Of a stretch of DNA of 64,000 bases, positions 29,128-31,353 are shown piece after piece (position 1 is the stretch's first letter; each line of letters opens with the position of its first letter). This stretch comes from Pseudidiomarina taiwanensis (GTDB lineage Bacteria > Pseudomonadota > Gammaproteobacteria > Enterobacterales > Alteromonadaceae), in the NCBI RefSeq assembly GCF_003987435.1, contig NZ_PIQG01000001.1:1-64000 (forward strand), written 5' to 3'. The translations under genes and the position numbers were made by a program. Under the pieces are notes generated by a model. The model saw nothing but the letters and a program-made list of their open reading frames with translations. It was not told the origin of the DNA and ran no database searches.

Positions 29128-30246
29128 ATGATTCTCGATAAATTACTTGCCGCAATGCTTAAGCACGATGCTTCAGATTTATTTGTATCGGCCGGCTTGG
29201 CGCCCAGTGTAAAAGTTAACGGTGAATTAACCCCGCTAACTGATAAACGGTTATCGAGCGAGGCCGCCCTTGCAGTGGTGAAAGAAGCTCTCGGTAAGGA
29301 GCACGAGGAAGAGTTCTTCGAGCACAAAGAAGCCAATTTTGCGATTGCACGAGAAGGCATTGGCCGTTTCCGGGTCAGTGCATTTTGGCAGCGACAACAA
29401 GCCGGAATGGTGATTCGTCGGATCGTGACTGAAATACCGACAGTCGAACAACTCAATCTGCCTAAGAGTTTAGTTGATTTAATTATGGCCAAGCGTGGTT
29501 TGATGTTAGTGGTCGGTGGCACCGGGACAGGTAAATCAACCAGTTTGGCGGCCCTCATTGGTTATCGGAATCAGCACTAGCGTGGGCATATTTTGACGAT
29601 TGAAGATCCTGTCGAATTCGTGCATCAACATGGTCAAAGTATGGTAACGCAGCGTGAAGTTGGGGCCGATACAGAGTCATTCGAAGCCGCTTTGAAGAGT
29701 TCATTACGGCAAGCTCCGGATGTGATTATGGTGGGTGAGATCCGCTCGCAAGAAGTGATGGAGTATGCACTAACTTTCGCCGAAACTGGCCACTTGTGTG
29801 TGGCAACCTTGCACGCCAACAATGCCAACCAAGCGATTGAGCGGATCATGCAGATGGTTCCCGAGGACAAGGTGAATAAGCTGATGTTCGATTTATCATT
29901 AAACTTACGTGGTATTGTTGCGCAACAGCTTATTCCAACCACCGATGTTAAGCGGGTCGCAGCGATTGAAATCCTGCTTAATACTCCAAGTGTTTCGGAA
30001 AAAATTGCGAAACATGATATGGGTGAAATTAAGTCAATTATGGCTAAGTCAACTGAGCTGGGAATGCAAACCTTCGACCAAGCTCTATTCAACCTCTACA
30101 AAGAGGGCCGAATTACCTATGAAAATGCCCTGCGCCACGCTGATGCACCAAACGATCTTCGCTTAAAAATCAAACTCTCTGGTGAGAATACTGATGATGA
30201 CGGCGATAGTGCGTTAAAAGGCGCGACGCTAGACCTTGATGATTGA
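29128..30246 (+). pseudogene. pilU: pilU, PilT-like retraction ATPase interrupted by an in-frame amber codon
   Basis: The frame from ATG 29128 (GAAGGA 8 nt upstream) to 30246 spans 372 codons, the usual PilU length, and looks intact except that codon 151 (29578-29580) is TAG. Before it are the N domain and Walker A GGTGTGKS (Lys136). After it, in the same frame, are HILTIEDPVEFVH, Walker B VIMVGEIRSQEV, the His box GHLCVATLHANN and an acidic tail typical of PilU. In paralogues this position is a polar residue just before GHI. If Ser TCG was ancestral, one base change would give TAG. The 150-aa truncated product would lack Walker B and be inactive. Possible causes are a recent null mutation, a base-call error, or read-through. 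Confidence 0.88.
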
Positions 30247-30315: not shown

Positions 30316-31353
30316 ATGCGAGTAGTAGGTATTGAGAGCTCTTGTGATGAAACTGGCGTAGCGATCTACGATACAGAGCGTGGACTACTGGCCCATAGAC
30401 TCTACTCACAGGTCAAGCTGCATGCCGATTACGGTGGGGTGGTGCCAGAACTCGCCTCGCGCGACCATGTGCGCAAGACCCTGTCGTTGCTTGATCAAGC
30501 GCTCGCCGACGCTGAATTGACGCGCACCGACATCGATGCTGTGGCATACACTATGGGCCCAGGTTTAGTGGGGGCTTTGCTAGTTGGCAGTTGTATTGGC
30601 CGCAGCTTAGCATTCGGACTCGGCGTACCTGCGCTTGGGGTTCATCATATGGAAGGTCATCTGCTGGCGCCAATGCTCGAGGATGATGCACCAGAATTTC
30701 CATTTATTGCCCTGTTGGTTTCTGGCGGCCACACGCAACTGGTTGAAGTCCGTGGCATCGGTTCCTACCAACTGCTGGGTGAGTCAATTGATGACGCAGC
30801 CGGTGAAGCGTTTGATAAAACCGCTAAACTCATGGGGCTTGAATACCCTGGTGGCCCACGACTCGCTGCGCTTGCCGCAGAGGGGCGGGCTGGGCAATAT
30901 CGATTCCCACGCCCTATGACCGATCGCCCTGGTCTCGACTTCTCCTTTAGTGGTCTCAAAACATTCGCTGCAAACACCATTGCAGACTCGGATAAATCAC
31001 AGCAAGCGCTTGCTGATATTGCCTTTGCGTTTCAAGAGGCGGTCATCGACACCCTGGTGATTAAAGCGCGTCGTGCGATTGAGCAAACTGGACTCAAACG
31101 CTTAGTCGTCGCAGGTGGGGTAAGTGCCAATATTGCCTTGCGGGAGCAACTCACTGAGTTTATGCAGAGGGTCGGCGGTAAGGTTTACTTTCCGAGACCC
31201 GAGTTTTGTACCGATAATGGTGCGATGATTGCTTTTGCCGGAGCGCAACGCTTAGTTGCAGGCGAACGTCAGGATCTGGCCGTGATCACTAAGCCACGCT
31301 GGCCACTTGCTGAATTATCGGCGCTTGATAGGGGTCTCGCTTCCGGCGCGTAA
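30316..31353 (+). CDS. tsaD: tRNA threonylcarbamoyladenosine transferase TsaD
   Basis: TsaD, with TsaB and TsaE, transfers the threonylcarbamoyl group to A37 of tRNAs that read ANN codons. It is essential in most bacteria. The 345-aa ASKHA-fold protein has [15 protein letters not shown] at the N terminus, the metal-binding HMEGH (111-115), [30 protein letters not shown], and [13 protein letters not shown] with [22 protein letters not shown] lies 8 nt before the ATG. Its last 39 nt overlap the convergent plsY gene. Confidence 0.97.

Follow-up and report, generated by a model that had tools for sequence, protein, structure and literature searches.

The closest described systems to the locus reported here are the PilU proteins of V. 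cholerae, P. aeruginosa, and Acinetobacter baylyi, bacterial pseudogenes that arose by a nonsense mutation, and published candidates for the read-through of an in-frame stop codon. With the known PilU proteins, the pilU of Pseudidiomarina taiwanensis has in common its membership of the TIGR01420 family, its position directly 3' of pilT, and its matches to the solved chains 9n32_A and 10my_A, but an amber codon interrupts its frame after Walker A and ahead of the catalytic half. Bacterial nonsense pseudogenes share with it a single in-frame stop, no other lesion, and intact orthologues in most relatives, and nothing tested sets this pilU apart from them. The read-through candidates described in the accessible part of PMC7918605 likewise possess an in-frame stop under purifying selection. 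However, those stops are common to two or more species, whereas the present one was found in one genome only.

According to the accessible part of PMC6762196, PilU works only together with PilT, its deletion in V. cholerae left transformation unchanged, and P. aeruginosa needs it for twitching under agar. A lowered retraction force upon pilU deletion was reported in the available text of PMC6821130. Among the papers listed for pilU pseudogenes or stops and for bacterial read-through, mostly outside subscription journals, no description of this pilU case was seen, and none on the type IV pili of Pseudidiomarina was found within the same scope.

The interrupted pilU gene, its neighbours, and its relatives

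The window, i.e., the whole stretch of 64,000 nucleotides that was analysed, harbours the interrupted gene between an intact pilT and an uninterrupted downstream gene (Table 1). The first-pass annotation had claimed an amber codon at codon 151 of pilU, followed by an intact remainder, and both were found: TAG is the sole in-frame stop within the gene, with 150 codons before it and 221 sense codons after it, up to a normal TGA. A PilU is a hexameric ATPase encoded in a single continuous frame, and it is this continuity that is lost here.

Table 1. Coordinates of the features discussed; positions without a locus name are those of the window
Feature	Coordinates	Strand	Details
pilT, intact retraction ATPase gene, 345 aa	28069..29106	+	TIGR01420, 516 bits; 92% identical to nearest congener
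pilU, whole frame	29128-30246	+	ATG at 29128, TGA at 30244-30246
pilU 5' piece, 150 sense codons, then TAG	29128..29580	+	TIGR01420 profile positions 2-149, 144 bits
GGTGTGKST in 5' piece, presumed Walker A motif	29515-29541		
Premature amber codon, pilU codon 151	29578..29580	+	Context CAC TAG CGT
pilU 3' piece, 221 sense codons and TGA	29581..30246	+	TIGR01420 profile positions 152-343, 251 bits
Downstream gene, uninterrupted, tsaD-like	30316..31353	+	ORF; synteny in congeners
Short-PilB locus, G010	L197:4338-5498		
Short-PilB locus, G022	L198:3853-5115		
Short-PilB locus, G016	L199:4353-5555		

The two pieces abut almost end to end on the TIGR01420 profile, and in the profile search of the genome the full frame, with the stop counted, scored 410 bits as compared to a cut-off of 319. 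Both pieces match the solved PilU-type chains 9n32_A and 10my_A, and their identities to the nearest congener are 79% and 86%; among the matches listed for the 3' piece, the best named ones were from Pseudidiomarina gelatinasegens (84%) and P. mangrovi (80%). Twelve codons separate the stop from the end of the stretch that we take to be the Walker A motif, and the stop precedes the catalytic half; the regions presumed to be the Asp box, Walker B, and the His box were placed in the 3' piece. A chance open frame is excluded because 221 stop-free codons after a TAG would arise at random with a probability near 2.5e-5 (by simple arithmetic) and because the homology reaches the end of the frame.

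The gene begins directly 3' of pilT, as membership in PilU requires. The downstream gene, which from its sequence we assume to be tsaD, is found near pilU in 10 of the 10 congener loci searched. The frames of pilA, pilB, pilC, pilD, and pilM to pilQ, among which pilA, pilD, and pilM to pilP were presumptively named, in part from gene order, are all uninterrupted in this genome. PilB has its full length (571 aa, 826 bits to TIGR02538), and the best family of pilC was a PilC model, with a score below the cut-off. On the basis of these pilA to pilD and pilM to pilQ frames, a dismantled pilus was ruled out. The pilT gene, claimed by the first-pass annotation to be intact, is so, and its translation, read by eye, contains AIKNLIRE as the counterpart of AIRNLIRE, a motif of the PilT C terminus named in the accessible part of PMC6762196. 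No AIRNLIRE-like stretch was seen by eye in the translations of the two PilU pieces, which fits PilU.

The alignment set consisted of 109 relatives, namely, 80 loci (the best 80 of the 588 relatives found) and 29 more; a few species occur in both sets, and L009 and L106 are identical in protein sequence. Serine had been expected at the site of codon 151, and it is indeed the residue in 82 of these relatives, followed by Ala (17), Gln (6), Gly (2), and Thr (2), as well as in all 22 congener loci aligned. The residues flanking the stop are typical of the genus. A stop-cut pilU frame was found in none of the 109 relatives: as in nonsense pseudogenes, the stop is missing from the intact orthologues, and the conservation of the stop among orthologues that characterizes programmed read-through is not seen. 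The frame measures 368-391 codons in 108 of the 109, and that of L075, read over 285 codons, is open up to the contig end. In a wider sample of the family, 108 of 118 genomes, including that of the window, had a pilU-like match at E 1e-60 or better, and the only frame under 370 codons among the 118 was that of the window. No split pilU was present among the relatives examined.

Selection and the age of the stop codon

Selection on pilU was estimated with a codon model of the GY94 type (own script, F3x4, fixed tree, 10 congeners), from which the stop codon was left out. On the window branch, omega was 0.054 (profile range of about 0.027-0.11) versus a background of 0.032, a difference that is not significant (2dlnL 1.76), and omega was far below 1 for both pilU pieces; the value for pilT on the same branch was 0.020. 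This test is rough, the window branch being long and control tips deviating too: with each of the 10 other tips as foreground, the omega of pilU ranged from 0.0018 to 0.126, and L152, L153, and L160 were significantly off the background. When the window branch is described as a mixture of background and neutral evolution, the strong constraint leaves, by our own rough arithmetic, at most about 8% of the branch as neutral time, and thus as time spent as a pseudogene. The count of lesions alone is weak evidence, since a second stop would be expected with 95% probability only after about 86 substitutions. An old pseudogene was rejected by dN/dS together with the absence of further lesions, and the stop appears to postdate by far the divergence from the nearest congener.

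Relaxed selection was also assessed from private residues and was not supported, as the window PilU has a single residue that is private with respect to all 109 relatives, which is not above the 0-3 seen in 31 control relatives. Against congeners there are five private residues, four of which lie between residues 274 and 290; for comparison, the two congeners whose nearest neighbour is least similar have 4 and 10, and the remaining 20 have 0-2 each. The four residues concerned (274, 275, 288, and 290; window 29947-29997, 3' piece) include position 274, at which the window PilU differs from a glycine that is invariant across the 109 relatives. They are possibly an early trace of relaxed constraint.

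Origin of the stop codon

In this Pseudidiomarina genome, pilU, which encodes an accessory, PilT-dependent retraction ATPase of type IVa pili, was likely inactivated by a single-base nonsense mutation of recent date. A very recent loss was the leading option of the first-pass annotation, and the intact remainder, the strong constraint on the branch, and the lack of any relative with the stop argue for it. Tolerance of pilU loss in the genus provides further support, since the gene is absent from 3 of 23 congeners. A base error, or a mutation private to the sequenced culture, would look the same in this one genome as a mutation fixed in the species, and a gene that is still read through at some level could likewise show strong constraint until now. 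Overall, this is probably the ordinary loss of an accessory gene by a very recent nonsense mutation and not a new way of reading genes.

The main rival is a base error in sequencing or assembly, with pilU intact in the organism, which we regard as unlikely. The 2.2 Mb assembly comprises 7 contigs, with a completeness of 99.88% and a contamination of 0, and pilU stood out in a gene-by-gene check with a non-overlapping set of 63 ORFs (120 aa or more) from a 75-kb stretch of the congener G009. Of these ORFs, 51 had a counterpart in the window and pilU alone was cut in mid-gene, so the sequence is not generally error-rich; in two other flagged genes the stop precedes the window's own start codon (31993; 49635). 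This check replaced an earlier comparison of overlapping ORFs with G009, which had flagged 24 of 76 and, in reverse, 17 of 68, mostly antisense or overlapping frames. On the other hand, a single stop with no other defect and with a constraint that is not measurably changed is compatible with a base error, and the assembly seems to be gapped: no tRNA-Ile with the anticodon GAT was found among 49 tRNAs, so gaps probably hide some tRNAs, and the tRNA search is incomplete.

Read-through is a minor rival, according to which ribosomes pass the UAG, for example by means of a near-cognate tRNA-Gln, often enough to yield useful full-length PilU, and it is judged very unlikely. The purifying selection on both pieces speaks for it, but the recency of the stop explains this constraint equally well. 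Glutamine is natural at the site in 6 of the 109 relatives, and misreading of UAG by tRNA-Gln in E. coli is reported in the accessible part of PMC5289835; in addition, the survey in PMC7918605, in its available text, contends that constraint and translation persist in many bacterial genes that carry in-frame stops. Against this stand the lack of the stop in all 109 relatives and the termination apparatus of the genome. The RF1 gene is present (prfA, 569 bits, over the cut-off), and TAG terminates 11 of the 47 other long non-overlapping ORFs of the window, so that neither the loss of RF1 nor the avoidance of UAG that goes with a recoded UAG was found; an altered genetic code was ruled out by the same observations. 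The genome gave 50 tRNA hits, 49 of them over the cut-off (anticodons from ARAGORN), and the weak 50th is a 3' fragment of tRNA-Arg(CCG). A suppressor tRNA with the anticodon CUA, for which the first-pass annotation had advised a search, was looked for, and no UAG-reading tRNA was present among the 49. The same annotation considered TAG followed by C a leaky context, a view that is unsupported for bacteria. In the accessible part of PMC11126739, a following G raised read-through in E. coli reporters and T lowered it, older work cited there has T and C favouring termination, and the increase by a following C concerns mammalian cells; for yeast, it is reported in the available part of PMC5289835. 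In the window itself, TAG-C ends three other long ORFs. Routine read-through is hence unsupported. It is highly improbable, too, that the UAG acts as a throttle, at which low-level misreading, most likely by tRNA-Gln, gives a small amount of full-length PilU; if true, PilT-driven retraction would be kept and only a trace of a force-boosting second motor would be added.

It is barely conceivable that pilU is a pseudogene of old date or has been split into two genes with separate functions. A possible TTG start at 29593 in the 3' piece would suit split genes, but there is no second lesion, omega is far below 1 for both pieces, no relative examined has a split pilU, and each piece alone is without a part of the ATPase if the motifs are what we take them to be.

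Expected consequence and pilus motors in the genus

With the recent nonsense mutation as the preferred reading, we infer a loss of PilU function. Translation from 29128 would end at codon 151, and the resulting 150-residue product would keep the N-terminal domain and Walker A but miss the catalytic half, whereas a product restarted downstream would be without Walker A; motor activity is expected of neither piece. Since the genes for PilT, PilB, PilC, PilD, PilM to PilP, and PilQ have uninterrupted frames, pilus extension and retraction should both continue, and work on Vibrio and Acinetobacter points to less force under load. The first-pass annotation had predicted that pilU loss would change twitching or DNA uptake. 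For DNA uptake this is at variance with the unchanged transformation of V. cholerae (PMC6762196, accessible part), while the retraction force was lowered (PMC6821130, accessible part). A mild loss of force is the likely effect here in view of these deletion effects and the work on P. aeruginosa.

Within the 23 congeners, pilU is uninterrupted in 20 and wholly absent from three (G010, G016, and G022), in which the tsaD-like ORF starts 42-84 bases after pilT. The PilB ORFs of these three genomes have 386-420 aa, and their match to the family model leaves out its N-terminal part; the MshEN domain, which the window PilB has, is missing from the PilB of G010 and G016, the two tested. PilC is shortened as well in the three (ORFs of 359-362 aa versus 411). 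In 19 of the pilU-bearing congeners a PilB passes the cut-off, and it has its full length in every one of them; none passes it in G001, which is 77% complete. A tree of pilT and tsaD placed G016 with P. mangrovi (support of 100) and G010 with G022 elsewhere; the support was 74 with pilT alone. In a tree of the PilB core, G016 grouped with G014 (96); G014 and P. mangrovi have identical PilU proteins. In spite of long branches and weak other supports, this suggests two independent events of pilU loss and PilB shortening, and the three genomes may have undergone a parallel, coupled remodelling of their pilus motors. The window genome, with its full-length PilB, is outside this remodelling.

In the wider family, 10 genomes have no pilU match, and 4 of them retain a PilB that passes the cut-off, which argues against a simple rule. 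G067 and G110, which belong to these four, are only 81% and 87% complete, and the pilT of G110 lies at a contig end; their pilU may merely be missing from the assembly. Six genomes (G045, G049, G066, G097, G109, and G140) possess pilT but lack both a pilU match at E 1e-60 and a PilB over the cut-off; in them, PilT may act on other pili, for instance MSHA.

Taken alone, the window gene is one more nonsense pseudogene, and its value is comparative. It is probably a natural null for pilU, with the remaining type IVa pilus genes examined apparently intact, in a genus that also shows outright pilU loss in genomes having a shortened PilB, and it may serve as a natural test of the conditions under which a cell can do without the second retraction motor.

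A separate observation concerns the tRNA-Arg(CCG) 3' fragment, which is located some 8.7 kb past the intact gene (L200:818-9615; G000 C5, 24817-33614) and suggests an element inserted at tRNA-Arg(CCG). Between the gene and the fragment are an AcrB-family pump with what we take to be two partner genes, and an AbiEi/AbiEii pair, and a second frame that by eye resembles the AbiEii protein is found just beyond.
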